Assembly: GCA_951799425.1 (NCBI GenBank)
Contig: OX637395.1
Location: 10,766,451-10,830,450, forward strand
Length of the DNA stretch: 64,000 nt
Direction of reading: 5' to 3'
Source of the DNA: Ilex aquifolium
Taxonomy: Eukaryota; Streptophyta; Magnoliopsida; Aquifoliales; Aquifoliaceae
In this document: positions 10,621 through 64,000 of the stretch, piece by piece
Layout of the letters: each line of letters opens with the position of its first letter
Position numbering within the stretch: the stretch's first letter is position 1
The notes under the pieces: generated by a model
The model's input: the letters and a program-made list of their open reading frames with translations, nothing else
Told to the model about the DNA's origin: nothing
Database searches by the model: none
Translations under genes and position numbers: made by a program

Positions 10621-11673
10621 CATGGGCCCATGCGGCCCAATATAAGACAAGGGAAGAGTCATACCCTGACCCTCATGAACACATTAATTGATAGCTATAA
10701 TACCAATTTGTAATATTACTTAATAACTCTAATAACAACTTGTAACGACCCGGATCACTTGATCACGTCACTTATAACGCCCAACATCTCACGATCACGT
10801 TACTGAAGCAAAATTTTTACATATCAACCTCACTTGGATATAGATAGGGTATAAGAAAACATTTAATATAGATAGGGTATAAGAAAACATCAAAACAGAT
10901 ATATAACCACAGGTAATCAAAGTTCAGAAATATTATGAAAAGAACTAATACCGAAAATCAAACAGTACCGACTAGGTACTCATAGTAGTGTCACACGAGT
11001 AGGCCAAAACCTTTGCGACCACACAAGGGTCAAGCAAATAAACCTTTTAGTGGGATTACACCACAAGGAACCTATGATCCCTCCACTTGTCAGTATCCAA
11101 GACTTAAAGCCACTAGGCCACCACAACCGATAAGACTCAATCAACCCTCGATGGTCTGAACAACTGGCTCATAGTCCCAATTTAATCTACAGTAGATTAA
11201 ATTGATATAAAAGTTTTGTTGAGTTAAATTGAGTTGTATTACAGTAGATTCAACAAACAGTATTCACAACCAGTCACGTTAGTCAAGAACATTGATAAAT
11301 CACGTTATAAAATAACATTGAATATGTATTTGAGTTTGAAAATCCAAGTCCATTGCAAAGCTGGATAACTTGCCACAGTCTTGACTCAAATACCTGAATA
11401 GTTGTCAAAAATCAAACAGTTAAACTTTCTAGTACCAACTCAAAAATAAGTCCTAGTGACATATTTTTTTAAAAAAAAAAGATTTAGTTTTGTCAAAAAT
11501 TGCATTGATTGCATAAACCGGATCTGGTAAAGAGAAAAACGGTCATTACTGGTGTGATGATGTCGAATTTGGCCAAGTCATATATGGATGGAAAGCCCTT
11601 GAAAATAGGAGTTTGGAGGTCCAAACCCAACCCACAGTCCATGCCCCACACGCCCTCATGTGTAGTGACATTG

Positions 11674-19838: not shown

Positions 19839-19839
19839 A

Positions 19840-20720: not shown

Positions 20721-21008
20721 TGCACTACAAAAATTGGATTGGACTCCTATTCTTATTTGTCGCAAATTAATCCAAATATCATACGTGACCAAACAATAAG
20801 CCATCTTAGAATCTAGATCCCTTCCAATATTTTTTTTCCTACAATTTCTCTCTTGGTGGATCATGCAATTCAGTGAGGAGCTCACTTGTATACAATGAGT
20901 ACCACTTAAATTTATAGTAGATGATATGTTTAAAAAAAATTAAAGAAAAAATATATTTGAGGAAACCTCAGTCCGCCATCTTCAATTTTTTGGGTTTTTT
21001 TTTTTTTT

Positions 21009-21042
21009 GGGGGGGGTGGGGGGGGGGGGGGGGGGGGAGGGA
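21009..21042 (+). repeat. Poly-G tract upstream of BBE-like gene, copy A
   Basis: A T-run is followed by about 34 bases that are almost all G, about 680 bp before the BBE-like start codon. Copy B has a shorter, more interrupted version at 61419-61440. It could form G-quadruplex structures, and its exact length may be an assembly estimate. Confidence 0.8.
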
Positions 21043-21656: not shown

Positions 21657-21666
21657 CTACAAATAG
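21657..21666 (+). promoter_or_regulatory. Degenerate TATA box of BBE-like gene, copy A
   Basis: Reads CTACAAATAG, 64 bp before the ATG. The same position in copy B reads the consensus CTATAAATAG (62074-62083). The roughly 20 bp just upstream are unusually diverged between the copies. Copy A has gained TTTTGACT (a WRKY W-box-like core) where B has TTTGGCCT. Whether A still initiates efficiently is inference. Confidence 0.65.
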
Positions 21667-21720
21667 CTCACATTTGATCATCTTTTACCCACAAAATCAT
21701 TGACAATCCAAGGAATCAAA

Positions 21721-23355
21721 ATGAAAATCCCAAGTGCTTCTTTTCTCTCACTTCTTCTCTTTTTCCTCTTCTCAATTTCATGGGCAGCTTCAGCTAATAC
21801 TCATGAACATTTTCTTCAATGTCTTTCCCTCAAACTTCATAACAACACCACAAACCCCCAGGTAATTTACACACCAAACAGCCCTTCATATTCATCTATC
21901 CTACAGTTTTCCATTCAAAACTTGAGGTTTGCTTCACCCGGCACCCCACGGCCTTTAGTCATAATCACACCATTGGAGGAATCTCATATTCAAGGAGCTA
22001 TATATTGTAGCCGAAAACATGGTATAGAGATTAGAGTTCGAAGTGGAGGGCATGATTTTGAGGGTCTTTCTTTCGTTGCTAAAGTACCGTTCGTCGTCAT
22101 TGATCTGACTAATATGCGAGCAGTCGATGTGAATGTTGAAGATGGCACGGCGTGGGTTCAGACTGGTGCAAGACTTGGCGAAGTATACTATAACATTGCA
22201 AATAAAAGTAGAACTCTCGGCTTTCCAGCAGGTCTTTGCCCAACCGTTGGCAGCGGTGGACATATCAGTGGTGGAGGCTATGGCCTGCTACTACGTAAAT
22301 ATGGTCTTGCTGCTGATAATGTCATTGATGCTAGATTAGTTGACGTAAACGGAAGAATTCTTGACAGAAAGTCCATGGGGGAAGACCTCTTTTGGGCTAT
22401 CAGAGGAGGTGGAGGTGGTAGTTTTGGAGTCGTTCTAGCGTGGAAATTGCAATTAGTTGCTGTTCCAGAAACTGTGACTGTTTTCTTTGTAAACAGGACT
22501 TTAGAGCAAAATGCAACTAAACTTATTCATCGATGGCAATATGTTGCAGACAAAATTGATGAAAACCTTTACCTTCGGGTTCTCCTTCGAAGTGTTCTTT
22601 CCAATGGAAAGAGAACAATGTTGGCTTCGTTTGATTCCTTGTTTTTGGGTGGAGTTGATAGTCTACTCCCGTTAATGCGCCGAGAATTTCCTGAGTTGGG
22701 TTTAGTGAAAGAAAATTGTATTGAGATGAGGTGGATTGAAGCAGTACTCAATTTTGCTGGTGGACAATCACTTAATGATTTGATAAATAGGACGTATCCG
22801 TATACCAGTAACTATAAGTTAAAAGCAGACTATGTGAAAGAACCTATTTCTGAACGTGTGTTTGAAGGGATATGGAAAAGGTTTTATGAAGAAGACATCG
22901 GTGTGCCTGTCATGGTTTTGAGTCCTTATGGCGGAAAGATGAGTGAGATCTCAGATTCTGCACTACCTTTTCCGCACAGAGCTGGGACCAAATATGGCAT
23001 TGTATACCAATCGGGATGGCAGGAAGAAGGGATAAAAGCTTCAAATAGGCACTTGAGTTGGATCCGAAGGCTTTACAACTATATGACTCCTTATGTTTCC
23101 AAGAATCCAAGAGTAGGATACGTTAATTACAGGGATCTTGATTTAGGAGTCAACAACGAAGGTAACACGAGCTTTGCACAGGCAAGCATTTGGGGTATCA
23201 AATATTTTAAGAACAACTTTGACAGATTGGTGTACGTGAAGACATTGATTGATCCTGACAATTTCTTTAGACACGAACAAAGCATTCCTACTCTGTCCTC
23301 GCAATGGATAAAGGGATTTGGTCATCATCCACAAGTTGGAAGAGACTCTCAGTAA
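21721..23355 (+). CDS. Berberine bridge enzyme-like (BBE-like) FAD-linked oxidoreductase, copy A, intact
   Basis: Secreted flavoprotein oxidase or dehydrogenase of 544 aa, usual family length and intronless as is common in this family. The start is the ATG at 21721; the in-frame TTG at 21700 is not a plausible plant start. Residues 1-25 form a signal peptide (SFLSLLLFFLFSISWAASA). C34 and C96 fit the family disulfide. The FAD_binding_4 domain spans about 75-215. It holds both covalent FAD attachment residues, H111 in RSGGHD and C173 in GLCPTVGSGGH, 62 residues apart. The C-terminal BBE domain has YVNYRDLDLG (467-476) and ends with DPDNFFRHEQSIP. The family acts on alkaloids, cannabinoid precursors, monolignols or oligosaccharides; the substrate here cannot be told. 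The protein should enter the secretory pathway (apoplast or vacuole). Confidence 0.95.
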   Translation: MKIPSASFLSLLLFFLFSISWAASANTHEHFLQCLSLKLHNNTTNPQVIYTPNSPSYSSILQFSIQNLRFASPGTPRPLVIITPLEESHIQGAIYCSRKHGIEIRVRSGGHDFEGLSFVAKVPFVVIDLTNMRAVDVNVEDGTAWVQTGARLGEVYYNIANKSRTLGFPAGLCPTVGSGGHISGGGYGLLLRKYGLAADNVIDARLVDVNGRILDRKSMGEDLFWAIRGGGGGSFGVVLAWKLQLVAVPETVTVFFVNRTLEQNATKLIHRWQYVADKIDENLYLRVLLRSVLSNGKRTMLASFDSLFLGGVDSLLPLMRREFPELGLVKENCIEMRWIEAVLNFAGGQSLNDLINRTYPYTSNYKLKADYVKEPISERVFEGIWKRFYEEDIGVPVMVLSPYGGKMSEISDSALPFPHRAGTKYGIVYQSGWQEEGIKASNRHLSWIRRLYNYMTPYVSKNPRVGYVNYRDLDLGVNNEGNTSFAQASIWGIKYFKNNFDRLVYVKTLIDPDNFFRHEQSIPTLSSQWIKGFGHHPQVGRDSQ

Positions 23356-23532
23356 AAATTCTTTGATAATCCTACAAGCAAGGGTCTGCTAGCAGCAAAT
23401 TACAATTGTTGTATTGCTTTTGCTTTTTCGTATTATTCTTTATTTCTCAGATTATATTTTCTTTCGTCTTGTTCCTTTTCCTCCAAAGACAAGGGGTAAA
23501 TTTCAAGAAAATCGATGCCTTCGTTGGACTTA

Positions 23533-23538
23533 AATAAA
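23533..23538 (+). terminator. Putative polyadenylation signal of BBE-like gene, copy A
   Basis: AATAAA lies 178 bp after the stop codon in a T-rich 3' region. It is conserved in copy B at 63950-63955. Confidence 0.5.
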
Positions 23539-23683
23539 AGTTGAAATTCTGTTGTTATAAATTGTTTTTTGGTAACTTTAGACTTTATGCTGTGATAAGG
23601 AGATCATATTATAAAATTTTTCTTAATTTAAAATTAGAAATAGTTATACGCCTCCCAAAAAAGAGAAAGAAGTGATCAAGAGA

Positions 23684-25369
23684 AACAACAGTTGATGACT
23701 AGGTGTTCTTGACGAGCAACAACAGTTGATGACTAGGTGTTTCGGTTTTCCCATTGGTTGTCTGCCTTTGAATTATCTTGGGATCCCTATTATTACCACT
23801 AAGCTTAAGTTGCATGACTGCTCTTTGTTACTTGAGAAAGTGGATTCAAGGATCAATTCGTGGGTTAATAGAGCTTTGTCTTATGCTGGGAGACTCCAGC
23901 TCATTAAATCTGTGTTATGTAGCATTCAGGTGTATTGGGCTAGTCATCTCATGCTCCCTAAGAAGGTCCTCCATGCTATTGATCAAAAACTAAGATGCTT
24001 CTTATGGTCTGGAACTGACATGAAAACAAAGGGGGCCAAAGTTGCTTGGAGGGATGTATGTGTTCCCATTAAGGAAGGAGGCTTAGGATTGAAAGATCTA
24101 AGGGCATGGAATAAAGCTCTAATGCTCAAGCATCTCTGGCACTTAATCTCTGACGAGAATAACACTTGGTCTAGCTGGATCAAGGATCACCATCTCAGGG
24201 GCAGGAGCATTTGGGAAACCAAACCATCACAAGTCTGTTCATGGAACTGGAGGAAGCTGCTGCAAATCAGGGAATTAGCAAGACCTTTCATTCTTTATGT
24301 TATTGGGAATGGTGGGAGTACATCTCTCTGGCATGATTTTTGGCATCCTAACGGTCCTCTCTTTCTTAAATGGGGTCCTCGAGTGATTTATGATTCTGGG
24401 ATCCCTAAGAATGCCAAGGTTGCCTCCATTATCCAAGGTAACCAGTGGAGTTGGCCCTCAGTTAATCCTAGAAACTCCACTGTTATTGAGGAGATCATCT
24501 CTTCTATGCCCAATTACTCCCCAACAATGGAAACAAAGGATGTGATCAAATGGCTCCCCCATGTTAATGGAATATTCTCTACTTCTTCCGCTTGGAGTCT
24601 CATCAGGACCATCAAACCAGAGGTGCCGTGGTACCATCTTATTTGGTTCAATCTTCACATTCCCAGATCCAGCTTTATCCTTTGGCTTGCTATTAGGTGT
24701 AGATTGGCCACAAAGGACAGAATTCATAGTTTTACACCCAATTGTGGCACTACCTGTGTGCTTTGTAGAGTTGATCATGAATCTCACTCCCACCTTTTCT
24801 TTGATTGCTCTTACTCAGAAAGTGTTTGGAGGAGTGTCATCAGTAAGTGTGATTGGCCATGGCGTTCTTCTTCTTGGCAGAGTCTCATTGAAGCTATGTC
24901 CACTCAATGGAAAGGCAAGAACCTCCAGAATTCCATTAGGAAGCTTTGTCTTGCTGTCACTGTTTATGTTTTATGGGGTGAAAGAAATCATAGAATCTTC
25001 ACCAATGAGCATAAAGATCCAGGTACTACCCAGATGATTGTTTTGAATATGGTGAGAAGTAGACTCCTCTCTATCAAAATCAAGGACACTCCGTTACATA
25101 GACTGGCCGCTTCTCCTTGGCAACTTCCAGACTCTTGTTTTTGCACATGATGTATTTCTTTTGCTGTTTACAGGCTGTGTAGTCTGTGGAGAGTGCAGAA
25201 TGCAGCCCCCCCAGACTTCCTCTGCCTGCTTTTGTTGGAATGACAGCAGACTGTTGCTGTCTTCTCCATGTTTCTCTGTTTTGATCCTTTTCCCTTAGGG
25301 GTTGGATGTTGTTCTGTACATTTGTTTATCTTCAATATATGTTCCTTTTACTTACCCAAAAAAAAAATA
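23684..25369 (+). mobile_element. 5'-truncated LINE ending in poly-A
   Basis: A plus-strand LINE 3' portion begins inside the RT thumb region, runs through the zf-RVT domain and a roughly 200-bp 3' UTR, and ends CCCAAAAAAAAAA near 25368. The 5' junction carries a 24-bp direct duplication (23684-23707 and 23718-23741) separated by 10 bp. I found no clear target-site duplication. This family differs from the LINE at 1-4952. Confidence 0.85.
23729..25150 (+). CDS. LINE ORF2 C-terminal fragment (RT thumb plus zf-RVT), uninterrupted
   Basis: About 473 codons without a stop, starting at the first in-frame ATG in a truncated element, so it is the tail of a larger ORF2 and not a complete protein. 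Early residues show the post-catalytic LINE block (LNYLGIPI, WVNRALSYAGRLQLIKSVL, EGGLGLKDLRAWNKALMLKHLW). The C-terminal zf-RVT domain shows FILWLAIRCRLATKDR, C-V-L-C and HLFFDC. The RT catalytic motif and the endonuclease are missing, so it cannot mobilise itself. The open frame indicates a recent insertion. Confidence 0.85.
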   Translation: MTRCFGFPIGCLPLNYLGIPIITTKLKLHDCSLLLEKVDSRINSWVNRALSYAGRLQLIKSVLCSIQVYWASHLMLPKKVLHAIDQKLRCFLWSGTDMKTKGAKVAWRDVCVPIKEGGLGLKDLRAWNKALMLKHLWHLISDENNTWSSWIKDHHLRGRSIWETKPSQVCSWNWRKLLQIRELARPFILYVIGNGGSTSLWHDFWHPNGPLFLKWGPRVIYDSGIPKNAKVASIIQGNQWSWPSVNPRNSTVIEEIISSMPNYSPTMETKDVIKWLPHVNGIFSTSSAWSLIRTIKPEVPWYHLIWFNLHIPRSSFILWLAIRCRLATKDRIHSFTPNCGTTCVLCRVDHESHSHLFFDCSYSESVWRSVISKCDWPWRSSSWQSLIEAMSTQWKGKNLQNSIRKLCLAVTVYVLWGERNHRIFTNEHKDPGTTQMIVLNMVRSRLLSIKIKDTPLHRLAASPWQLPDSCFCT

Positions 25370-29805: not shown

Positions 29806-31159
29806 TTACCTCCCTAGGTGATTCCCTTGTGGGCTTAAGTCCATCCCCCTCGACAGTTCTGAGACAACTTTCCTCGAAAGCCCTTTAGTTAGCAGATCAG
29901 CTATATTTAGTTCAGACATCACAAAGTCTAGTGAGATTATGTTTTTACTCAGCATTTTCTTTATTGATTTATATCTCACTTGTATATGTCTATTCATCTT
30001 TTTATTATTATGATTTTGCTTCACAAGCTCAATCACTGCCTTACTATCACAATGTAATGAAATGGCAGGTATGTGTTTTTCCACTAGAGGTATCTCTAGT
30101 AATAAATTCTTTATCCACTCTGCCTCAGCACACGTGGTATCTAGGGCTATAAGTTCTGACTCCATAGTACTTCTTGATATTAGGGTATGTTTTTTAGATC
30201 CCCAAGATATGGCTGCTCCTCCTAACAACAAGACATAGCCAGTAGTAGATTTTATATCTAAACTATCGGTGATCCAATTCGCATCACTAAAGCCCTCAAC
30301 TACACTATAGGAAATCCACTATAACATAAAGAGTAGTCTAAGGTTCCTTTAAGATATTTAAAGACTCTCTCTAAGGCAACCCAATGCTCTTTACTAGGAC
30401 TATGTGTATATCTACTTAGTCTCCCTACGACATGCGAGATATCAGGTCTAGACTTATTTGCTATGTATAATAAAGATCCAATTATTTGTGAATACTTCAA
30501 TTGTGAAATCGGTTCTCCTTTATTTTTCTTCAAATGTACATGAGGATCATATGGTGTTGATACAGACTTACTATCATAAAAACCAAACTTTTTCAACATT
30601 TTCTCTATGGTGCTAGACTGACTTAGAGATATTTCATTAGATGTTTTCTCTATTTTCATTCCCAAGACTATATAGGCTTCTCCCAAATCTTTCATATCAA
30701 ACTTAGTAGATAAATAAGATTTAACATCATTAACGACCTCCAAGTTTGTCCCAAAAATTAGTATATCATCTACATAGAGACATAAAATCACACAAACAAT
30801 ATCACTATCCTTGTAGTATAAAAATTTATCACTTTCATTAATTTTAAAACCATACTCTAGAATTACTTTATCAAACTTCTCATGCCACTGTTTAGGAGCT
30901 TGTTTAAGGCCATATAAAGACTTCACTAACTTACAAACCTTATGTTCTTATCCTTTTACCATAAGCCCCTCAGGTTGTTCCATATATATCTCTTCATCTA
31001 AATCCCCATTTAGAAAAAGCAGTCTTGACATCCATTTGATGTATTACTAAGTTATGGATAGACGCTAGGGCTACTAGTACTCTAATGGTAGTGATACTAG
31101 TCATAGACGAGTATGTCAAAATAATCTATCCCTTTCTTTTGAGTAAATCCTTTAGCCAC
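29806..31159 (-). pseudogene. Copia pol: reverse transcriptase and RNase H, frameshifted
   Basis: The RT continues from 31159 with shifted frames (the conserved QMDVKTAF-type block is near 31030). It is open at 30926-30300: SLYGLKQAPKQWHEKFD, catalytic YVDD in LCLYVDDILIFG, and GSLLYIANKSRPDI. A one-base shift near 30300 separates it from RNase H. RNase H shows GFSDANW just after the shift, [29 protein letters not shown] and [10 protein letters not shown]. The RT and RNase H catalytic residues are still recognisable. Confidence 0.9.
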
Positions 31160-33011
31160 CTATCTAGCTTTATATTTATCTATACTCCCATCGGGTTTTA
31201 GTTTCTTCTTGAATATCCACTTACACCCAATAGCTTTGCTTCCAGGAGGCAATTCTACTATCTCCCAAGTATTATTAAGCAATATATATTCAATTTCACT
31301 ATTAATAGCCTCCTTCCAAAAATGTGCATCTATAGAAGACATAGCTTCTGTATATGTCGTTGGCTCTCCTTCTACTAGAAAAGTAAAAAATCCCTCTCCC
31401 AAGTCCTTTTCTATTCTTGGTCTTTTACTTCTCCTTAACTCTACATGTTGTTCTATATTTTTCTCTATGGGAGCAATAGAACTAGTAGAAGGTTGATCAC
31501 TAGTTGAAAGTGTTTCTCTTACTTGACTAGGCATTGTATTTTTAAAAGGAAAAATATCTACAAAAAATGTAGCATCTCTAGATTCAATTATAGTATTGTT
31601 TGAAATTCCACTAATTTTCGAGTTAATAACTAAGAATCTATTAGCGCTACTATTTTGGGCATATCCTACAGAGACTGTATCTACGGTCTTAGGACCTATT
31701 TTCTTTCTCTTTGTTTCTGGAATAGCTACCTTAGCTAAACACCCACACATTTTCATGATGCTAAGGTTAGGAACTCTTCCCTTCCATATCTCATATGGAG
31801 TTTTCTTATTATCTTTAACATATACTCTATTCCAGATGAAACAAGTACTAAGTATAGCTTCCCCCCACAAATTATCAGATAAGCCGGAACTAGTGAACAT
31901 TGAATTTACCATATCCATTAAGGTTCTATTCTTTCTTTTAGCTACCCCATTTGATTGAGGAGAATAAGGAGGAGTCACTTCATGTATGTTCTTCACAAAA
32001 TGTACTAAGGTCAGTTAGAGTATATTCACCTCCTCTATCGGACATTAGTCTTTTCACTTTTCTCTCTAATTGATTTTCAACCTCATTTTTATATATCTTA
32101 AACTTATTAAATACTTCATCTTTGTTCTTAATAAGGTAAATATAACAATATTTAGAACAATCATCTATAAAAGTCACAAAATATTTATTTTCGGCTCTTG
32201 TTGGCGGTATACTAGAATCACATACATCACTATGTAGAAGTTCTAGAAGTTGGGTATTCCTTTCTACGCTTTTATGGGGTTTTCTAGTTTGTTTGGCTTT
32301 TACGCAAATTTCACACTTATGTTTAAAATCTACATGAGATTTGGGAATAAGATTGAGATCCATTATCCTTTTGATTTTCTTTAGACTTATGTGTCCTAAT
32401 CTTCCATGCCATACATTGCAAGATTCAACATTGAAAACTTGATGAGAAATTTCATTAACTTCCGAAAGTACATTCAATTTAAATAAACCATCACAAATAT
32501 ATCCGTTGCCTACAAATATATCATTCCTAGTTATCACAACTTTATTTGACTCCATTACAACCTTATAACCTTGTTGGACTAAGGACGACCCACTAACTAA
32601 ATTTCTTCTAACTTCAGGAACATGTCGCACTCCCTTCAAGATCAATGTCTTCCCATATGTCATCTTTAACTCTATGTCTCCAATTCCAAGTACTTGTGCG
32701 ATGGAATCATTTCCTAGCGTTACACTTCCTCCACTTGATTTCTGATAAGATTTAAATAAATCACGATCAAAGCAAACATGTATATTAGCCCTAGAGTCTA
32801 ACCACCAATCTTTGTCTTGATAGGTAAAGTTAACTAGGGAACGATTATACCTAAAGGAGGCTTCGGCAGAATTATCTCCATCCACTAGAACATTGACTTG
32901 GGCTCTTGGATCTCTTTGATTTGGCTTGGGCTTTGGCTTATACGGTTCAGTCTTCTTGTAGTAGCAATCCTTAGCCAAGTGATTGGTTTGTCCACAAACA
33001 AAGCAAGGCAT
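31160..33011 (-). pseudogene. Copia pol: zinc knuckle, protease, integrase, start of RT; frameshifted, catalytic residues altered
   Basis: From 33011: knuckle CFVCGQTNHLAKDC, then protease WWLDSRAN, where the catalytic D-S-G has become D-S-R. Next are the GAG_pre-integrase block (WHGRLGHISLKKI, CEICVKAKQ) and integrase (HSDVCD, FIDDCSKY, SDRGGEYT). A frameshift near 31985 leads into 31996-31160, with the block that carries the third catalytic residue. It reads NGVAKRKNRTL where copia elements have NGVAERKNRTL, i.e. the catalytic Glu is Lys. The frame ends at the RT opening (CKWIFKKKLKPDGSIDKYKAR). This copy cannot process or integrate by itself. Confidence 0.9.
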
Positions 33012-33022
33012 CCTCTCTCTCT

Positions 33023-33794
33023 CTAAGCCCTTGAACTTATTATTATTATTATTGTTGTTGTTTTGATAGTTTTGTTTTTGACCATTATTAGGACGACCAT
33101 TAAACCTCTTCCCCTAGGTCGGAAATTGTTATGGTTGTTGTTACTATTTTCCACTAGGTTTACCTTAGGGGGTCTCTCATTTTGTGAGTTTGTACCAACC
33201 CTATGCTTCTCTTCAACCCTAAGCACGTTTATAGTTTGGGTTAAGGTTAACTCTCCTTGCTTATGCCTAAGGGTCTTAGCAAAATTATCCCAAGAAGGTG
33301 GAAGTTTGTCAATTAAGCTTGAAACTTTAAAATCTTCACTAAATGTAGTTCCATCCTTTTCAATTTTCCTCAAAAATTCTTGATATTCATGAATTTGATC
33401 ACCAACGGGTTTATTCTCCACCATTTTATAACTATTAAAATTAGAGATCATAAACCATTTAATTCCTGCATCAACAAATCCCATACTTAGCCTGTAAAGT
33501 GTTCCAAAGTTCTTTAGCGGTTGTCGTAGTATTATGGTAGACATCATAAAGATGATCAAAAAGAGCACTTAGAATTCTATTATGACAATGGTATTCGATT
33601 TGTTCAGGGGTATACCATGAAGAGGACACTTGACTAGATTGAGGCTCTTCTATAGCAGAAATTAAGCCTAGTACGGTCAACCAATATTGAACTTGTTTCT
33701 GCCACCTACAAAAATGTTGACCACTAAAATTTTCGGGTTTGACACCATTATCTTCTTCTAGTCTAGTCATCCTTAATTTAGAATTCAAGGGCAA
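33023..33794 (-). pseudogene. Copia gag, frameshifted
   Basis: Starts at 33794 (MPLNSKLRMTRLEEDNG). It shows the copia gag opening (FSGQHFCRWQKQVQYWLT) and the KELWNTLQAKYG block, and shifts frame near 33480. It then continues at 33568-33023 (NSYKMVENKPVGDQIHEYQ, LIDKLPPSWDNFAKTLRHK). The C-terminal part becomes Asn-rich (about 33160-33030). The zinc knuckle follows in the next frame at 33011. In a live element this protein forms the particle that packages element RNA. Confidence 0.88.
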
Positions 33795-46573: not shown

Positions 46574-47541
46574 TTACACCAAGTGCAACAACACCTCCGG
46601 ATATACGATATTTGTCGTGGTAGCTGATCCATCAGGAGGGAGAAGGACACTTATGCGATCGGCCGAGGTGCATCTAGACATGGCCACATATAGGTGATCG
46701 TGGCTGAATACAGGCGAGCGCAGATCTACACCAACAAACTTGACTGACTGGCCTTGTGACTTGTTGATTGTCATAGCATATGTTAAGCGTACTGGGAATT
46801 GGCGGCTAGTCATTTGAAATGGTAAATCTTTAGACGACGGTGATAATGATATCCGCGGGATGAAACACAGATTCCCAAATTTGTCACTAGTTAGAATTCT
46901 AGTCTCAATAACCCGCGATACACACTTGAAACCCATAAGTCTTGTCCCGTTACAGAGGCCATCTTTTGGGGCTATATTCCTCAACAAAATGATGGGGCAC
47001 CCGACCTTTAGCTCCAACTTGAAAGGCGGTAAACCTGACGGGTTTAGGAAATTCAGAAATTCACTTGGATATTGATTAGTGGTAGAACGATGGAGTTCGT
47101 CCTCATCCGACACCTTGTCAGCTGCCAAGTAGGTATACGTCTCGCCAGGGTAAATTTGTAGAGCAAATATCATCATTTCGAGCAAAAAGAATTGTGCACT
47201 CAGTTAAGTAGGATGGGGTTACCGCACTGAGCACATCTAGTTGTGGATAAACTGTGAAAATTAGTTCATGCAGAGTTTGAAACCTGTGTATCGTTGGAGG
47301 AAGTTCCACAGTATCTTGAGTACTGATCCCAATCTAAGTTTGATGAGAATTTAGTCAGTACATGTAAATGAATAATTAGACGGTTTTATATAAATATCTA
47401 TCTATAATATAAATCACCTCTTTCAAGAAGGATGCGTGAGAAGAATTTGCAGGATGATTGGTATTCAAACGCATATTTATGTCCAAAGTCAATACGCAGA
47501 CACTCGCCCACATTGCAGAACGTCTTAAGGATGCACCTACG
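46574..47541 (-). pseudogene. Helitron PIF1-type helicase, C-terminal half, broken
   Basis: From the junction, the minus strand reads GASLRRSAMW and NMRLNTN (the block after the Walker B region). It passes through frame changes near 47400 and 47180, then is open at 47185-46574. That part has [67 protein letters not shown], and [18 protein letters not shown]. The last two are helicase motifs V and VI. The Walker A motif and the Rep (rolling-circle) domain that should precede it are missing. Confidence 0.88.
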
Positions 47542-50141: not shown

Positions 50142-51200
50142 TTAAAGCCACTAGGCCACCACAACCGATAAGACTTAGTCAACCCTCTATGGTTTGAACA
50201 AAGACAATTTGTCACTCAATCCTGTGTCTTTTGCAAGAGATTCGAGTAATTAGTTTCACAAAATATAGTTTGCAAGCTTAACAGTTCAACAATTCAGCAA
50301 TTTAGAGCACCCATGGATCTGAATTCAACAAACAGTATTCACACCCAGTCAGTTAGTCAAGAACATTGATAAATCACGTTATAACATAACATTGAATATG
50401 TATTTGAGTTTGAAAATCCAAGCCCATTGCAAAGCTGGATAACTTGCCACAGTCTTGACTCAAATACCTGAATAGTTGAAAAAAAAAAAAGATTTAGTTT
50501 TGTCAAAAATTGCATTGATTGCATAAACCGGATTTGGTAAAGAGAAAAACGGTCATTACCAGTGTGATGATGTCGAATTTGGCCAAGTCATATATGGATG
50601 GAAAGCCCTTGAAAATAGGAGTTTGGAGGTCCAAACCCAACCCACAGTCCATGCTCCACACGCACTCATGCGTAGGCCTGTCAAAATCTAACACGACACG
50701 ATTAACCGACACGAATCGACACGGATTAAACGGGTTTGGGTGAGACCTTAACGGGTTCGGGTGATAAACGGGTCAACCCGTTTAACACGTTTAATAAACG
50801 GGTCGTGTTTGGGTGAGACATGTCAACCCGTTTATAACCCGTTTAAATAAAATTAATATAATAATAAATTAATAATTTTTTTTTAATAACAGCCACACAG
50901 AAAATATATAAACTTATTTTTCCTAACCCTAATCTAATATTGTAGATTCTTGAACGGCTGAAGCTCTGTTGTTGGTTGCGCCTCCAGTCCAAAGCCTCAA
51001 CTCTTCTACTCTCTCTCTCTCTCTGCGAGCTGCGAATAGTGAGCTACGAGATCGAGACTTCGAGCAGGTAGACTTCGAGCCAAGACTTCGAGCAGATCTT
51101 CAAGTCAAGACTTCGAGCAAGTAAATCTTCTTCTTCTCTACCTGTGTTCTTTGTTATTTGTATTAGATATGTGTTAGATCTGTTTTTAGATCTGTGTTTA

Positions 51201-51338
51201 GAGGATATTAAAGCACTTTTTCCTTCTGATTACAATCCTTTCTATGCGGGTTTTGGGAACAGAGACACCGATGAGCTTAGTTACCGAAGAATTGGAATCC
51301 CAAAGGGCAAAATCTTTATTATTAACCCCAAGGGCGAG
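51201..51338 (+). pseudogene. Captured exon of a lipin-type phosphatidate phosphatase (PAH) gene, LNS2 domain
   Basis: Reads EDIKALFPSDYNPFYAGFGN, RDTDELSYRRIGIPKGKIF and IINPKGE, which is the C-terminal part of the LNS2 catalytic domain of plant PAH1/PAH2 lipins. The stretch is preceded by TTTAG (acceptor) and followed by GTTTCT (donor position), so one exon appears to have been taken with its intron edges. The DxDxT catalytic motif lies further upstream in the parent gene and is not here. The surrounding open frame (51144-51374) ends in a stop just after the donor. Confidence 0.85.
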
Positions 51339-51588
51339 GTTTCTTATCGGAACAAAAGTGCCCTGGGTGATTAAGAGTTACACATGAGGAAACTTTCCCA
51401 TAGAAAGATGGATTCAGCAAAATTAATGATGTATCTTTGAAAACAAAAATGAAATGTCCTGGAACCAAAAGATTATATCATTTTTGTAACAATCACTCGC
51501 ATATAATATGCCAAGTGTGTTGCTATAAACACTGTATATGATGAAAGCAAAAAATTGATTACCTTGAACAGTGCAAGTGAAAATTTAA

Positions 51589-51894
51589 ATGATCAAACTG
51601 AATTGTTGTAATGATAAAATTGAGTTCACACAAATAGCAAAATTTAAAATTGGACACCATATTCATCCCCATTGCATCACCTGTGAAGCAGCTAAATCTC
51701 ACATAAAGATTTTTCCCCGCAATAGAACACCTAATAGATTGGAGCCTAGCAAATCTACTCGATCTGTCCAAAAACCACCTTGTTATGATCCTAAAAGCTG
51801 GTCTGATATGCAACAAGATGTTTCTGCTGTTTCTAGAAACATCATATTGTCCATCCTCAAGAGAGGTAATGCCAAGTTTTTGGTACTTATCTAG
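51589..51894 (+). pseudogene. Second exon-like stretch in the hAT element, family unrecognised
   Basis: The plus strand reads [16 protein letters not shown], then [20 protein letters not shown] and [11 protein letters not shown], followed by GTAATG (donor-like). After TGTAG at about 51950 another stretch reads HGNLVVESACCRGGGD. This has real-protein composition, but I cannot name the family. It could be a second captured host-gene fragment or a hAT-derived piece. Confidence 0.4.
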
Positions 51895-52591
51895 TTATGA
51901 ATCTATTTAATTATTAATGTTATATAACATTTCATTTTAATTTGTGTAGGGCATGGGAATTTGGTTGTTGAATCTGCTTGTTGTCGTGGAGGTGGAGATT
52001 TGATATATTTTCACGGGATTTTGTGAATCATGGAATTTGTGGTTGTTTGAGATTGTTATTTGGTGTAATTTTGGAACTTGTGGTTATTTGGGATTGTTAT
52101 TTGTGGTTGTGGTTGTTTGGGATTGTTATTTGGTGAATAATGTAATATGATTGTTATTTGGTGTAATTGTATTATTTCGGATTATATTTATAATTTGTAA
52201 TATGGTTTTTGGTGGAATTTGGTTATTTTGGATTGTAGTTTGTACTTTATAATATGGTGTGGTATATTTAAATATCACATTTATTTGTGTTTCTTTGTTA
52301 GTTTTATAAATAAACAGGTAAATGGGTCAAATGGGTCAAACGGGTCAAACTTGTCGTGTACGGGTTAAATCGACCCTACCCAACTCGACACGTTTAAAAT
52401 TAGACGTGTTAAACGATTCGTGTCGTGTTACCCGTTTATTAAACGGTTCGTGTTCGTGTTTAAATTTTTTACCCGTTTATTAAACGTGTCGTGTACGGGT
52501 TTATGCGTTTTTCACCCATCACCCGTTTAACCCGACACGTAACCGTTTAACCCGACACGTTTGACACCCTTACTCATGCGTAGTGACATTG

Positions 52592-54775: not shown

Positions 54776-56487
54776 AGGTTCGGCTCCTCTACGGTAGGCA
54801 GGAAACCGCATGACATGCGGTTAAGTGGAACGACACCATTTGGTGCTTTATGTAATTTTTTTTTTTTAACAGTCCATACCAAAAACGACGTCGTTTTTGG
54901 TCTCTAAAATTTCAGCCTTGAAATCCCTTCTTCTTCGTTAGACTTCAACAGTAAAGCCTCAGTTCAAAAAAAAAAAAACAGCAAAGCCTTGCGACATCAG
55001 CAGATCTGGGCGACTTCAGGCAAGTCCGACGATCTCAGGCAGCTCTGACTTCACATTCATTGCCTTGTTTCTTTAGGTGCCTATCATCAGCAATTAAGCT
55101 TACCAAATCCATTTTGGCATTTTCTCAAACAGGTGGAGGGTGGGAGGTGTGTGTGAGAGATTTGCTTGAAGGAGAAAGAGGGAGACAGAGAGAAATGAGA
55201 AAGGGAGGGGAGAAGGAGAGAGAGAGATGAAATAGCAACTAGCTTGTGTGCTCCAACTATAATGTGAAGAATGTCAAATTTATCACCAGTTTTCTTCGTG
55301 AAAACATCTTTAATTTCAACATCAAATGCTCATGGAATTAAATTTCATCTGAATTCTTGTGCCCTTCTCATCTGAATGTTATACTTCCAAACTTTTTTCC
55401 CTCTGTCGATTCCCACACTTGCATGATTTCCCATATCACTTCCATCCTTAACACCATCAACATCATCACGAGCATAATATGAATCCCCTGAGAATTCTTG
55501 TTCATTGAGGAACTTTGCATGGAGAGTTTCTTAATCCTGATCCGATCAAGCCATCTTCCAACTAAGCTTCTCACAGTAAAATTTCAAGGTCCTCATCCTC
55601 TCAATCTTATGCATTCCAACTGTTTTTCATCCACTGCTTCCAATTATCTGACAAACTAACCAAGAATTTACATCTCAGTCTCCATCCTCTCATCATTACT
55701 TACATCCCTACATCAGAATCAGAATAGCCATATAACTCTACTTTTTCCCTTATAGAATTCTCTTTTCTTTTGCCTCCTTTGGCAGAAGAAGCAATCCATT
55801 TTTTCCGAACTCGAACTAGTTTTCCCCATCTCCATATTCTGTTCATGAGATCAATATACCGATAACGCATTCCCATCAACGGATGCTTCTCAACCAAAAC
55901 ATCCTTCATATACACCTCCCTCAAAACCATAGTCTAAGTCCTAATCTTATTGGATACATAAAATATCCCAGGATGATGCACCAAAGCCTTCTTAAACCTT
56001 TTATCAAACTCCAAATAATCCCCCAAACAAAACATATTGTCTTTCTCTGCCTTCTTCCCCACCATCAAATGAAGCAACTCATGAATTACCCCAACTGTCC
56101 ACTTCTCTGCCTAATCACTGTTCGGCGCCAAATGAAACGCATCCTCATAAGGCAAAATGTAAGACAAATTTTGCCCCTCATCAACCCAATTCCTCACTTT
56201 TTTCTCCAAATCAAACCCCCTCGGAAAATTCATCGGAAACCCAATACGTTGCCTGAAGTCGGAGCTGCTTGAGAAAGGCTTTGCTGTTTTTTTTTTTTTT
56301 TGAACTGAGGCTTTGCTGTTGAAGTCTAACAAAGAAGAAGGGATTTCAAGGCTGAAATTTCAGGACCAAAACCGACGTTGTTTTTGGTATGGACTGTTAA
56401 AAAAAAATTACATAAAGCACCAAACGTTGTCGTTCCACTTAACCGCATGTCATGCGGTTTCCTGCCTACCATAGAGGAGCCGAACCC
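54776..56487. mobile_element. Pack-MULE carrying a PORR gene fragment, copy B
   Basis: Same element and site as 14444-16105. The 9-bp target duplication is CACTTTGCT (54767-54775) and CACTTTGTT (56488-56496). The left terminal repeat is full length here (about 215 bp, 54776-54990), with the roughly 55-bp stretch that copy A lost. The right repeat is 56273-56487. Confidence 0.9.
55700..56332 (-). pseudogene. Captured PORR-domain gene fragment with MULE-derived start, copy B
   Basis: An open frame from 56332 starts in the terminal repeat (MLDFNSKASVQKKKK) and runs in frame into PORR sequence (FRQRIGFPMNFPRGFDLEKK, RNWVDEGQNLSYILPYEDAF). So the captured fragment is fused to transposon-derived N-terminal residues. 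It ends at a TAG (56111-56113) where copy A has CAG (the Gln in NSDQAEK). Further PORR blocks follow after the stop, and a second stop at IRT* is shared with copy A. Confidence 0.82.
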
Positions 56488-56496
56488 CACTTTGTT

Positions 56497-59400
56497 TCAT
56501 CATGCTCACCATATGTTTTCTTCTAGATTACCAAACATTTTACTTTCGACAAATGTCCTACGGTGCACCAAATTTTACACTTACATATCCGAATATACCT
56601 TCTCGATTACTGCAGATATTCAACATCGCATATTTCTAATGTGAAATATATCCAATATTAAAGTAATTGGACTCTCCTTTACACAAGGAATTCATTTATG
56701 TATTTGAAATTTTAAAAAATACAATATATTAATCACATAAAATTTTAATATTCCTCAAAATTCTATCCCGATTTATAACTCTTATTTTAAAAAAAAATTG
56801 GGATGTCACAAGAAGGCTGTTAAGCGGGGAGCTGGGAGACATTAACCAAGGATATTTTGATGAGGAAAGAAAAATTCAAGTGTTAATAGTTGTATGTATG
56901 GTGTCCCCACGCAGACGACCAGTGAAGAGTCTCTCGACTCTCAAGGTTTTGCCTTTTGTTTCATGAGAATTTCCTGTGGTTTTTATTTTGAAGGAAGAGA
57001 GTTTTTCCAAATATGAAGAAGGCTCACTTACAGGTATGACTACTCTCTTGTGGCAGGGAAGGTACTTTAGTCGCTTAGCTAACTAAGCTACGGGACAACG
57101 GGAAAGGGGGAAAATGGCTAATAGCACTGTAAGCCGCTTTTAAGGACTAGAATAGTAACTTAATTTCCAACTTCTTGCATTGCATTACCATAAAAAAAAA
57201 ATTAAAAAAAAGGAGAGAGATTGCTCCTGTGACTCGGAATGAACTTAGGTGCGGGCAGATGGGGCACTACGTGATAGAGTGCACAACAAAAATACTTCTT
57301 CTTAAGGAAGATAATGAGGAGAGGGAGATAGGGGGACGCAACACGAGCATACTAAGTTTTCGGAAGTGAAGAGAGCCCGCGATGCAGTGTTTGACTTCGG
57401 TACATATGATTACGCATTCTTCGCTGTGGTCGGGTCTTCAGTTTCATCACAGGGACAACTGGGTAGCTGTTCAGTACCTAATGTGGTTGATCAAAGGAGT
57501 GCAGATTTTCACAGCAATTTTCTCCTGGTTGGACAGATAGTGGTGCCACTTGGTTGGTTGTTGCAGGACAGCCTGGTTTAGCTCTCCCTAGAAGGGCCCC
57601 ACTTGCATGACCCTTTTGGTCAAAAACAAAATCAAACTAAAAGGCTAAGAGGAAATAATAAAGTATAGGTTTCTTTTTAACTCCTTAATATATGGACTAG
57701 CAAATATCCTGTGCCTCAAGACATTATGCAATACAAAAAATTAAATATTAATAATACAATAATTATATTTTAAATTTTAATTTAATTATGCAATATAAAA
57801 TTAAAGTGAATAAATAGAAAATAAGATAGAGAGAGAGAGATAAGGGAGAGAAAAGTAGATGTAGATTAGTGGAGTTGTCAGTCATTAAGGAGTGTGTTGT
57901 TTGAATTGTTTGATATTAGGGGCATTGTAAAAAGATGATGTTTTTTAGTGAATAAAAAATTATATGATGAATTTTATACCATTGAGTCAAAGAAGATAAA
58001 AATTGAATTAATCTTGACCATTGTTGTGCTTTTATAAGTTGATAATTCAATTTCTTATCTATAATATTAGACAGATAGCTGGGTATGCAAATTGACCAGA
58101 TTTTGATTTAAATTTGATCTGAATTTAATTTAATTTAATTTAACTTAATTTGGTCATATCATACTTCACGGATACAAGTTTGCATATATCAAGAATGTAC
58201 CTTATGCTTCAAGATATGATTAAGTGATCTCTCAATGAAATTTTTTTTGCTCCAATTCGATTATTCTGATGGGAGCGTGTTTGATTTTTGAATTGGGTTT
58301 CTATTTTTAATTGATTGGCATATGGGCAACGAAAATAAATCGTTACACAATTTAATCGGATTTTTAGATTCTTAATTCGGAAAAGTCGACCCGATTATTA
58401 TCCATTTGTAGGCTGAACAATAACCTAATAAAATTAGATTCAAATGAAAACTAGGAAAAATATGTCAATGGACCATGCAAGTGCAAATGTCATTGCTAAG
58501 GCCGAACAATAACCTGATAAAATTCCTACCATGGCCTTAGTGATGACATTTGCTAAATTTTAATTTTTAGTAGATTCAGATGAAAATTGTGAAAATAAAG
58601 TCAGTTGGATATTGAATTAAAGTTCAGAGTAAGATTGATTGAAATTCGATCAGTGGAAAGGCCTACTAATAACCTGTCATGAACTAGAATGCATATATTA
58701 GACCTATTCTAAGTTGTAGTTCTTATGAACGGATTGCGCAAGTTCAAATGTAAATGTCATCAAGTAGGTCATGCCAATAAGTTTATGTGGTGAAGGTCAA
58801 AATAAAGTTAAAAAAAATGAGAGACTTTACCTTCGATTTACCCCCTCTGATGTCTAAGTTAGTAGGTACTTAAATGGAGGATAAGACTTTTACTGTGCTA
58901 GGTTAGTTGTGAATGAGTACCTGAGACTCGACTCATTGGACTATTCATACCTTCAAAGAGGATGACATGACATTTCAGGGATCCATCAAGTCGACTGGAG
59001 GAGCCTCATAGGTAATCATTAGTGAGCTATCATTCTCTTGAGCCGCGCAAGTACTTGGCTTGGGGAAGTTGACGACTCCTCGAGGTCTAGCTGCATAATG
59101 ATTACCCTGCCTGGGATGTCGAGCACTCAATGCATATCTCCTCAGCATTTAATGACCTCTGCAAAGCTTTATTGAACTGTGTTGAACAATCATTGCATTG
59201 ATATCGAACATTAAGTTTATGTGCCCCCGAGAAATTCACGTCAGCAAGGGTCATTTCTTTACTTAGATTTTTTTCAGATTCGAAGTGCAATTCAATGTGA
59301 CTTGTCCGCAGAACTAAATGTGACTTGCCTAGTGTTAAATGCTCGGACCCGAGATGCATCTTTCCCTTTAGCTTACTAGGGCATATTCCTTGTGATTCCC

Positions 59401-60530
59401 TCCTCGAGGCCGACCAAATACCTCAGTGTTTCACTGTTCGAGACCACATGTTATACTCTAATATGAGAGTCGTTTCATGTCCCGTCTCATCAAATATTTT
59501 GCTTTGGGCCCTCTTTGTGTTAGGCTGCCCTACTTTGACGGAAATTAACAATAAGATTGTATATGAACATGCATGTTATTCAAGAGTGTTTGTTTGCATA
59601 TATTGAACTTTCTTTTATAAGTAAACTTGAAGTTTATCTGATTAAATTTTAGAGTTTGACTTTGGTATTAAAGGAGGCATGATACAATAGTTTATTACTT
59701 TTTGGTTCAAAATATAATCTTTTGGAGTTAATGTACAACAAAAAATATTAGCATCGATTATATAATTTATGACTTCCAATGTTTTTGCAGTGTGTGCGAT
59801 CCAACAATCTAAAACGTTATAACTTCTTAAAAAATTATATTTTGTTGGGTCCTATTTTTGCACCGAAAAATATTTTTTTGATATTATATCTCTACTTTTT
59901 AACTAAAAGAAACGTGTCACGTATACAAATTTTTTATTTTATAATTTTTTTATAATTTTATAATTTTTTAAGTTAATGGTTGCAAGTCATTTAATTCAAA
60001 ATCGATGACGAGATTAATGAAAGAAAAATCCCGAAATTGCTAACTTTAGTAGCGTAGTCTGTAGCCTTATCCTATTTTGTGATTTAATACAGGAAAAACT
60101 CTTCAAGTACCATGGACTAATTCTAAATTAAATTGGTTGAAAACGAAATTTCCAAACGGAGTTCTTGGACCAAGTCCTCGAATAGACTTTCACCGCTGAA
60201 CTTCGAGATAGAGGATACTTTTGACTATATTTTGTTTAAAAAAGAAAGAAAATTTCAATTATTAATAGTCATACTAAGTCTGGTGTGTCATGTAAATAGT
60301 GAGTATAAATTTTTCAATTATATAATTAATCGATGACGTCACGTGATATTGACGATACGGGCAAATTGAATATTTTCTTGCCAGACGCGGAGACGACCAG
60401 CAAAAGGTCTGTGGATTCTGGAGGTTTTGCCGCTTGTTTGCGGAAAATTTCACATGGTTTTTGTCAAGAAGTCAAATCCAATCTAAAAGTCTACAGAAGA
60501 ATTAAATTAATACAATATTTGTTTCTTTCA
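56497..60530. other. Non-coding stretch, copy B
   Basis: Counterpart of 16115-20120. It holds the degenerate zinc-knuckle relic (about 57205-57369), the older direct repeat members (about 56860-58340 and 60240-61130), the stem-loop (58483-58553), and a shorter (GA)n tract at about 57828. No functional gene recognised. Confidence 0.6.
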
Positions 60531-61130
60531 ATTCCTTAAAATATGGAGAATAAAGAATTATATTTGGATTCACGTTTTATTTCATTTGAATTTAAATTTA
60601 ATTTACTTTTATTATATCATACTTCACGGATACAGATTTTAATAAATTAATAATGGATCTTATACATGAATATATATATACATGCAAGGAAAAAAATTTC
60701 GTTTCAGAACGTTCCAAAAAAACTGAAATAAATCAGTGATAAAATCGAAATTCTAATACGTCGAGGTGTTTCATAATGGTTCGACATGTTTTATAATATT
60801 TCAATGCATTTGTACAATTATTTCGAAATATTTCAAGGTATTTCAAGATACTTTTGTATATTTCAACTAATGTTTTAAAAAGATAATTTTTAATTTTTTT
60901 TTCCATTCTATTTCTAAAACCGGACAAAACGTTTTCATTTCTTACATGTCTGAAACAATGCACCGAAACGAAATTTTGATCTTTATTTCTATAAATAAAT
61001 TAAGTGATCGTTCAGTGAAATTGATTAGAATAAAAAAAATTAAATTTGCAAAATTCAGCTGCAATTTAGTTATACGATCGGAGAGAGTTGGATTTCCGAA
61101 TTAGATTTATATTTTTGATTGATTGGAAAA

Positions 61131-62070
61131 TGCACTACAAAAATTGGATTGGACTCCTATTCTTATTTGTCGGAAATTAATCCAAATAGCATACATGACC
61201 AAACAATAAGCCATCTTAGAATCTAGATCCCTTCCAATATTTTTTTTCCTACAATTTCTCTCTTGGTGGATCATGCAATTGAGTGAGGAGCTCACTTGTG
61301 TACAATGAGTACCACTTAAATTTATAGTAGATGATCTGTTTAAAAAAATTTAAAGAAAAAATATATTTGAGGAAACCTCAGTCCGCCATCTTCAATTTTT
61401 TGGGTTTTTTTTTTTTTTCGGGGGAGGGGGGGAGGGGGGGAATGGGGTGTCAATATTATAGTCTAGGTTAAAATGCTGCAGTTTGAATTATCAACACCAC
61501 CTTTGTGGACCACTTCAACATATACAATTAAATTAGTAAGTCTCACAATGTTTATCACATATTTAATGGTTGTAATTCGTCAAGTGGTATAAGTGAGATG
61601 GTGTACACAACATTATTCTTGAACTATAGAAGCAAAATAACCCAAAACCACATAGTTTATACAACAAAATGACAAATTGTCATTCAACCTATAGTAGATG
61701 CATTCAATCAGGTTAATAACAAACCAATAATTATAATTGCATGTGCAATGTGAAAAAACTGGATAATTAAAAGACATGCAATATGCTTTTTCATTTCAGT
61801 GTGAGTTGACCTTTTGAATTTTTATTTTGAATGGCCCGTCAACCTTCCATTCAGCCACCTCAAGTGAAAGGACAATATGGAACATGTGGCCAACTTGTAG
61901 ACCCGTTAAATAACTAAATGAATCACCCAAATTATAATATTATCCAGCACACGGCTTGTTGACAATCCAGCCCACCTTTGTTGATCGACTTCTAGACCTC
62001 TCAAGCGTCAACCCCAATACCCCCTTTTTCACCCACCCAAAATTTAATAAACCAGAAATTTGGCCTCAAA
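61131..62070. promoter_or_regulatory. BBE-like upstream region, copy B
   Basis: Counterpart of 20721-21650. Includes the shortened G-rich tract (61419-61440), a W-box-like TTGACC at 61806, and GTCAAC motifs at about 61840 and 62009. Small indels relative to copy A lie near 61675-61705. Confidence 0.45.
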
Positions 62071-62073
62071 CAA

Positions 62074-62083
62074 CTATAAATAG
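62074..62083 (+). promoter_or_regulatory. Consensus TATA box of BBE-like gene, copy B
   Basis: CTATAAATAG lies 64 bp before the ATG. It is the ancestral-looking version of the copy A sequence CTACAAATAG. Confidence 0.75.
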
Positions 62084-62137
62084 CTCACATTTGATCATCT
62101 TTTACCCACAAAATCATTGACAATCCAAGGAATCAAA

Positions 62138-63772
62138 ATGAAAATCCCAAGTGCCTCTTTTCTCTCACTTCTTCTCTTTTTCCTCTTCTCAATTTCATGG
62201 GCAGCTTCAGCTAATACTCATGAACATTTTCTTCAATGTCTTTCCCTCAAACTTCATAACAACACCACAAACCCCCAGGTGATTTACACACCAAACAGCC
62301 CTTCATATTCATCTATCCTATAGTTTTCCATTCAAAACTTGAGGTTTGCTTCACCCGGCACCCCACGGCCTTTAGTCATAATCACACCGTTTGAGGAATC
62401 TCATATTCAAAGAGCTATATATTGTAGCCGAAAACATGGTATAGAGATTAGAGTTCGAAGTGGAGGGCATGATTTTGAGGGTCTTTCTTTCGTTGCTAAA
62501 GTACCGTTTGTCATCATTGATCTGACTAATATGCGAGCAGTCGATGTGAATGTTGTAGATGGCACGGCGTGGGTTCAGACTGGTGCGAGACTTGGCGAAG
62601 TATACTATAACATTGCAAATAAAAGTAGAACTCTCGGCTTTCCAGCAGGTCTTTGCCCAACCGTTGGCAGCGGTGGACATATCAGTGGTGGAGGCTATGG
62701 CCTGCTACTACGTAAATATGGTCTTGCTGCTGATAATGTCATTGATGCTCGATTAGTTGACGTAAACGGAAGAATTCTTGACAGAAAGTCCATGGGGGAA
62801 GACCTCTTTTGGGCTATCAGAGGAGGTGGAGGTGGTAGTTTTGGAGTCGTTCTAGCGTGGAAATTGCAATTAGTTGCTGTTCCAGAAACTGTGACTGTTT
62901 TCTTTGTAAACAGGACTTTAGAGCAAAATGCAACTAAACTTATTCATCGATGGCAATATGTTGCAGACAAAATTGATGAAAACCTTTACCTTCGGGTTCT
63001 CCTTCGAAGTGTTCTTTCCAATGGAAAGAGAACAATGTTGGCTTCGTTTGATTCCTTGTTTTTGGGTGGAGTTGATAGTCTACTCCCGTTAATGCGCCGA
63101 GAATTTCCTGAGTTGGGTTTAGTGAAAGAAAATTGTATTGAGATGAGGTGGATTGAAGCAGTACTCAATTTTGCTGGTGGACAATCACTTGATGATTTGA
63201 TAAATAGGACGTATCCGTATACCAGTAACTATAAGTTAAAAACAGACTATGTGAAAGAACCTATTTCTGAACGTGTGTTTGAAGGGATATGGAAAAGGTT
63301 TTATGAAGAAGACATCGGTGTGCCTGTCATGGTTTTGAGTCCTTATGGCGGAAAGATGAGTGAGATCTCAGATTCTGCACTACCTTTTCCGCACAGAGCT
63401 GGGACCAAATATGGCATTGTATACCAATCGGGATGGCAGGAAGAAGGGATAAAAGCTTCAAATAGGCACTTGAGTTGGATCCGAAGGCTTTACAACTATA
63501 TGACTCCTTATGTTTCCAAGAATCCAAGAGTAGGATACGTTAATTACAGGGATCTTGATTTAGGAGTGAACAACGAAGGTAACACGAGCTTTGCACAGGC
63601 AAGCATTTGGGGTATCAAATATTTTAAGAACAACTTTGACAGATTGGTGTACGTGAAGACATTGATTGATCCTGACAATTTCTTCAGACACGAACAAAGC
63701 ATTCCTACTCTATCCCCGCAATGGATAAAGGGATTTGGTCATCATCCACAAGTTGGAAGAGACTCTCAGTAA
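62138..63772 (+). pseudogene. BBE-like FAD-linked oxidoreductase, copy B, disrupted by an early stop
   Basis: Same 544-codon layout as copy A, with the ATG at 62138 and stop at 63770-63772. Codon 62 is TAG (62321-62323) where copy A has CAG. That leaves a 61-residue product ending before the FAD domain. After the stop the frame is fully open. The covalent FAD residues (RSGGHD, GLCPTVGSGG) and the BBE domain are intact. I count seven amino-acid differences from copy A: L to F and G to R near the first FAD segment, V to I, E to V, N to D, A to T and S to P. Downstream reinitiation would lose the signal peptide and first cysteine. Best read as a very young pseudogene, unless the stop is polymorphic or a sequencing error. 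Confidence 0.9.
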
Positions 63773-63949
63773 AAATTCTTTGATAATCCTACAAGCAAGG
63801 GTCTGCTAGCAGCAAATTACAATTGTTGTATTGCTTTTGCTTTTTCGTATTATTCTTTATTTCTCAGATTATATTTTCTTTCGTCTTGTTCCTTTTCCTC
63901 CAAAGACAAGGGGCAAATTTCAAGAAAATCGATGCCTTCGTTGGACTTC

Positions 63950-63955
63950 AATAAA
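63950..63955 (+). terminator. Putative polyadenylation signal of BBE-like gene, copy B
   Basis: AATAAA lies 178 bp after the stop codon, conserved with copy A (23533-23538). Confidence 0.5.
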
Positions 63956-64000
63956 AGTTGAAATTCTATTGTTATAAATTGTTTTTTGGTAACTTTAGAC

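Follow-up and report, generated by a model that had tools for sequence, protein, structure and literature searches.

The window, by which we mean the whole 64,000-nucleotide stretch of Ilex aquifolium DNA that was analyzed, contains a 1,900-bp hAT element with host gene sequence between its ends (Table 1). The initial annotation had described a real insertion of a hAT element, and both points stand. The target-site duplication (TSD) is exact over the 8 bp expected of hAT elements, and the 13-bp ends are inverted repeats of each other at 10 of 13 positions and begin with TA.GG, the consensus form of hAT ends. When the flanks of the insertion are joined, they align without a gap to 11603–11721 in the other tandem copy (114 of 119 positions identical), where there is one CTCATGTG and no insert. 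Full-length relatives of the element encode hAT domains. The motifs ACGGG/CCCGT occur seven times in the first 200 bases of the element, six times in the last 260 bases, and once elsewhere. A second copy, located ~194 kb away at 11.01 Mb of C5 (L063, C5:11010000–11014600), has the same TSD as the window copy and similar flanks (100 per cent identity over 1 kb on the right and 97 per cent over 1 kb on the left), and we read it as the window insertion duplicated together with its surroundings.

Table 1. Coordinates of the hAT insertion, its cargo, and its empty site in the window.
Feature	Position	Strand	Basis
Left 8-bp TSD, CTCATGCG	50665..50672	.	Exact repeat of 52573–52580
Non-autonomous hAT element, whole, 1,900 bp	50673..52572	+	TSD, termini, empty site, same-ended relatives at other sites
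5' terminal inverted repeat, TAGGCCTGTCAAA	50673..50685	+	10/13 match to other end
Putative start of 5' leader intron of ancestral transposase gene	51121..51194	+	CAA/GTAAATC; CAG/GTAAATC in longer copies
Lipin/PAH joined-exon fragment	51195..51340	+	146/146 to joined C9 exons; flank test; LNS2
HMG-CoA reductase fragment, antisense, with intron sequence	51338..51817	-	96% to C12:34351341–34352430; PF00368
19-base piece of lipin donor 3' region, CAAGATGTTTCTGCTGTTT	51814..51832	+	Exact; 184 bases past donor stop
Junction of transposase-removing internal deletion, 6-base overlap CTCAAG	51856..51861	.	Comparison with C6 copy
3' part with subterminal ACGGG/CCCGT repeats, common to many family copies	51856..52572	+	Genome search, best 40 of 2,420 candidates
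3' terminal inverted repeat, TTTGACACCCTTA	52560..52572	+	10/13 complementary to 5' end
Right 8-bp TSD, CTCATGCG	52573..52580	.	Exact repeat of 50665–50672
Empty site, CTCATGTG, other tandem copy	11655..11662	.	Joined flanks align gap-free

The lipin (PAH) cargo proposed in the initial annotation is real. The window ORF over this stretch matches the LNS2 domain (Pfam PF08235, 5.4e-20), and the suggested genome search, in which we compared the exon with the plant's own 800-Mb genome, located the parent PAH gene on C9 and allowed its introns to be compared. All 11 candidates of this search were scored, giving 11 places: five elements matching the whole query, three elements matching its first 65 bases, the C9 donor (132 bases, 100 per cent identity), and two paralogs on C12 and C10 (80 per cent). 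The introns of the donor are inferred from its sequence: each of five exons is preceded by AG, each but the last, which ends with a stop, is followed by GT, and the joined exons encode the end of an LNS2 protein (PF08235, 3e-42). Both paralogs (L007, C10:6126723; L008, C12:31307721) have introns at the same places as the donor, as judged by eye. On visual comparison, these paralogs also differ little from each other, even in their introns, which points to a recent duplication.

Specifically, the cargo was described as 138 bp of LNS2-coding sequence from one captured exon with splice-site edges. The lipin source and the coding character were correctly recognized, but the stretch extends over 51195–51340 instead of 51201–51338, and it is a fragment of joined exons, with parts of three, followed after an interruption by sequence from the 3' region of the gene. 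It consists of 9 bases of exon N-1, all 129 bases of exon N (51204–51332), and 8 bases of exon N+1; both donor introns are absent, and all 146 bases are identical to the donor across the two exon–exon junctions. Splice-site edges are not present. Outside the 129-base exon, the flanks in the element agree with the donor introns over 2 and 1 bases and with the adjoining exons over 9 and 8 bases, and because they match the exons and not the introns, the edges of the 129-base stretch are exon–exon junctions. Counting the lipin locus itself, the 64-kb window has two positions with a run of 9 bases or longer for the 5' side and one position with a run of 8 bases or longer for the 3' side. On the 3' side, the final 3 bases of the lipin piece are shared with the adjoining HMG-CoA reductase (HMGR) piece, leaving only GGCGA, 5 of the 8 bases of exon overlap, outside the shared part. 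Strings across the first and the second exon–exon junction occur at 10 and 5 places in the genome, each inside a copy of the element family (0 for the backward-read controls), and the copies on C3 and C15 have the first junction with one mismatch.

The other exon-like stretch that had been noticed in the element is an antisense HMGR fragment of ~480 bp (PF00368, 3e-11). It retains what we read by eye, guided by the HMGR protein, as intron sequence up to an acceptor, CACCCAG/GGAAC, and it is therefore derived from genomic DNA. In a genome search with this piece, eight matches were obtained: two are parts of the donor, five are in elements, and one, at 77 per cent, is on C8. Approximately 602 bp of donor sequence are missing inside the piece, at 51650–51657. 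Splicing was considered as the cause and rejected: the gap has a short shared stretch at its two borders and takes in exon as well as intron sequence, and we read it as a deletion. The joins of the HMGR piece to its neighbours overlap by 3 bases (GGT) and 4 bases (CAAG), the latter being the first 4 bases of the 19-base lipin piece that follows. The genome has six occurrences of this 19-mer, five in elements and one in the donor (C9:8732950), against 0 for the backward-read controls. The presence of lipin sequence on both sides of HMGR, in the right order and orientation, suggests one longer lipin capture, the middle of which was later replaced.

The five copies with the full 146-base piece differ from the lipin donor at 0, 1, 1, 2, and 2 positions, and the HMGR piece differs from its donor by ~4 per cent. 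The capture thus looks fairly recent by sequence divergence, although the lipin donor exon is under selection and the HMGR donor may be an allele or a paralog of the true source. A 100-aa ORF that runs across the lipin piece is probably not selected, and we think that the cargo has no selected function; effects of the cargo on its donors through small RNAs are possible.

To place the window copy within its family, we examined 20 further element loci; four of these (L059–L062) are one-ended, show no match over the lipin piece, and were left out, which gives 17 copies with the window copy. The element search scored 40 of 2,420 candidates and the transposase search scored 85 of 796, so that counts from both are lower bounds. 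Lipin-derived sequence is present in 12 of the 17 copies (146 bases in five, 71 bases in three, and 20–27 aligned bases in four); in the remaining five there are matches of 11–16 bases alone, which we attribute to chance or to repeats of the element itself. Since two of the 12 lipin-bearing copies share a TSD, they represent 11 insertion sites. The TSDs of 13 other copies are exact in ten, have one mismatch in two, among them the C6 copy, and do not match in one (C15); of the copies besides these 13, those at C7:3.62M and C13 have exact TSDs, and the one on C11 matches at 7 of 8 positions. In all five copies carrying the 146-base piece, the piece lies between the termini, contrary to what would be seen if it were outside the element, and these copies have four different TSDs. 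With donors on C9 and C12, this is the pattern of a Pack-hAT. Introns, which are kept in genomic capture by Pack-TYPE elements, are lacking from the lipin piece and retained in the HMGR piece; whether genomic capture should define Pack-TYPE elements is a matter of usage.

The window copy lacks a transposase and is a deletion form, not an autonomous hAT. Frames in the C11 copy contain the hAT dimerisation domain (PF05699, 1.1e-29) and an RNase-H-type domain (PF14372, 2.7e-28), which identify a hAT transposase, and the 4,281-bp C6 copy combines lipin and HMGR sequence with a transposase frame that is interrupted by an in-frame stop. In the C6 copy, ~2.4 kb separate element positions 1–1189 from 1184–1900, which adjoin in the window copy. 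The window copy resembles what an internal deletion would leave of a transposase-bearing, C6-like copy. Because the longer C6 copy has the same cargo, it was probably not the short window copy that made the capture. The transposase frame of the C6 copy starts at CTTAACAG/ATGGATTC, its ATG directly after CTTAACAG, and the cargo would lie in a leader intron between the GTAAATC donor-like site and this acceptor. In the C11 copy, the insert region lies between two occurrences of a 29-base element repeat. A pre-capture state was not found among the copies examined: the transposase-bearing, lipin-free copies at C12:2.50M and C6:28.60M have unrelated sequence in the leader. A similar stretch, TTAGATCTGTGTTAGA, is present in two relatives without lipin, and part of the 9-base 5' overlap may be the element's own. 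At least five further transposase places, outside the lipin and first-junction matches, have stop-free frames of 595–596 aa and are a possible source of movement in trans. These frames are at C6:28600799, C2:11636247, C12:2496750, C12:33382721, and C12:4552550, with ~95 per cent identity to the C11 query. Separately, two equal-scoring hAT transposase frames are arranged tail to tail ~1.2 kb apart on C16 (13250968–13252389 on the plus strand and 13253624–13255045 on the minus strand).

Other members of the family carry host pieces of their own. The copy at C12:32.79M (L050 2150–2950, C12:32789949–32790749) has a piece with 98 per cent identity to C5:624128–624588, which contains, in antisense, an ORF beginning MEVLNPK that has no match in Pfam. 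Spliced capture was considered for this piece and discarded, as the ~1.85-kb gap relative to the donor, of which we fetched the two ends only (GGGTGTGTTTGG and CCAAACGCACCC), looks like an insertion that the C5 donor has gained since. The copies on C4 (L049 1602–2060) and at C7:33.0M (L058) share a piece of C20:17679713–17680159 with different internal deletions; for the C4 copy, spliced capture was similarly rejected, given a 111-bp donor gap with no splice signals by eye, in favour of genomic DNA with a deletion. With the three other captured pieces examined (HMGR, C5, and C20) looking genomic, a spliced source is the exception in this family.

Capture of host genes by hAT elements has been better documented (PMC3260210, PMC2528002, PMC8903248, PMC6710886) than the initial annotation had allowed. 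Nor is spliced capture by a hAT element new in itself, because in Pseudocercospora fijiensis and its relatives a hAT element carries spliced histone H3 sequence, for which a transcript or a retrocopy was inferred as the source (PMC6710886). The fungal element, as far as the available text describes it, resembles the one studied here in its hAT ends, 8-bp TSD, exon–exon junctions without an intron, hAT domain in many copies, and multicopy state. It differs in its fungal host and in its hundreds of copies, most of which (94 per cent) match the third exon only, whereas our element is from a plant and combines the 3' part of lipin with a second gene from genomic DNA at a transposase leader-intron site. 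In maize, the non-autonomous hAT elements Ds2 and Ds-l4 carry gene fragments as filler, sometimes from host genes, and introns are kept where the donor is known, from which the authors argue for genomic DNA (PMC3260210); in the accounts available in that paper, the fragments thus differ from the intronless lipin piece. Hatvine-6 elements of grapevine share a transposase and ends, while the rest is variable and often matches genic introns and exons, comparable to the variable leader intron here; spliced capture is not mentioned in the available text (PMC2528002). The Pack-hAT and other Pack-TYPE elements of maize and rice are likewise non-autonomous terminal-inverted-repeat elements with host coding DNA, for which tandem insertion and re-mobilisation was proposed, in a main text where no words beginning with intron, spliced, cDNA, or mRNA were found (PMC8903248). 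For the Pack-TIRs of animals, 208 of 370 of which are hAT, the model discussed is one that also suits our element, in which gaps are filled while the template is switched where short sequences are shared; there the template is DNA (PMC8277862, available text). Within the open-licence PMC literature searched, as far as its accessible text goes, we found no plant hAT with spliced capture, and no report of the plant setting, of a single insert whose cargo comes from both RNA and DNA, or of a leader-intron site.

Taken together, the sequence comparisons make it probable that the element in the window, a Pack-hAT of the non-autonomous kind with spliced-lipin and HMGR cargo, is an internal-deletion derivative of a longer copy. 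From what can be read in the DNA (the element, the ends it shares with relatives, the exon–exon junctions, the donors, and the order of the parts), we infer break repair, a sequence of events, and movement in trans as follows. A transposase-bearing hAT family would have gained host gene sequence in its 5' leader intron when, in an ancestor of 11 of the insertions studied, a fragment derived from spliced lipin message was used to repair a break within the element, the template being cDNA or RNA directly, or a retrocopy. In one branch, the middle of the lipin sequence would then have been replaced by ~480 bp of antisense genomic HMGR DNA. Later deletion of the transposase region would have produced the 1.9-kb form, which may have moved in trans, inserted in the window, and been copied once more with its surrounding segment. 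Both the 29-base repeat of the C11 copy and the short overlaps where HMGR meets its neighbours are consistent with gap repair by template switching. That the break in the leader intron was filled by direct copying of spliced host RNA, or of its first cDNA, is a tentative proposal, which we would put at clearly less than an even chance.

A processed lipin retrocopy, made beforehand by retrotransposon enzymes either elsewhere or inside the element and then carried by the hAT, is a branch of this explanation and not an alternative to it, and we give it nearly an even chance. It is consistent with the sequence facts, the authors of the fungal study leave "transcript or retrocopy" as the choice in the available text (PMC6710886), and frames of copia-like and LINE-like type are present in the window. 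However, no free lipin retrocopy was found in the assembly: the exon–exon strings are confined to element copies, and the exon query leads to the eight elements, the donor, and two intron-bearing paralogs. Of the marks of a processed pseudogene, the lipin piece shows the loss of introns, but visual inspection of the 3' piece and of the surroundings of the insert revealed neither a poly-A tract nor a clean TSD of its own; the 29-base element repeat is near the insert and does not abut lipin on the left.

The capture of lipin from genomic DNA, with breakpoints at exon edges by chance, would make the element an ordinary Pack-TYPE case. Genomic capture is the rule in the available text of the maize Ds study (PMC3260210) and for the three other pieces examined in this family, and the sequence flanking the piece on its 5' side, TTAGATCTGTTTTTAGATCTGTGTTTAGAG, is repetitive and rich in AT. 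On the other hand, both ends would have had to stop at splice sites and then to continue by chance for 9 and 8 bases of the neighbouring exons, and the same-orientation 19-mer that follows is otherwise found only in the 3' region of the same gene. We regard such a capture as very improbable. Genomic capture from an unsampled, intron-poor lipin paralog, instead of from C9, is in our view very improbable: introns near the 3' ends of genes can be lost and the assembly may be incomplete, but the window copy matches C9 at 146 of 146 bases, and the other two lipin loci keep both introns. A chance match to lipin is refuted by the same identity together with the LNS2 score (5.4e-20) and the presence of the piece in five copies at four insertion sites, which leave it a vanishingly small probability.

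In this element, a plant hAT carries two exon–exon junctions and 3' sequence of one donor beside an intron-bearing fragment of another. The leader intron of a transposase gene would be a site at which cargo could accumulate while the coding frame stays intact, and a direct RNA-to-DNA capture route, if true, would exist alongside the genomic one, with marks of both in the same insert. The similar copies, the known donors, and the lipin-free relatives with open frames in the same genome make the capture route testable.

Elsewhere in the window, a frame at 598–1296 has no Pfam hit, and the frames at 4056–4496 and 23699–25147 look LINE-like (DUF4283 and zf-RVT), the latter located just behind the first of two berberine-bridge-enzyme-like frames (21667–23352 and 62324–63769; PF01565 and PF08031; 562 and 482 aa). 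Several apparently copia-like frames lie within 29809–33568, with RVT_2 in the tested frame at 30303–30947, and a frame with a Pif1 2B helicase domain at 46577–47203 is possibly a Helitron remnant. The tandem segments to which the two berberine-bridge-enzyme-like frames belong, 14491–23583 and 54876–64000, are 96.5 per cent alike, and the second of them reaches the end of the window.
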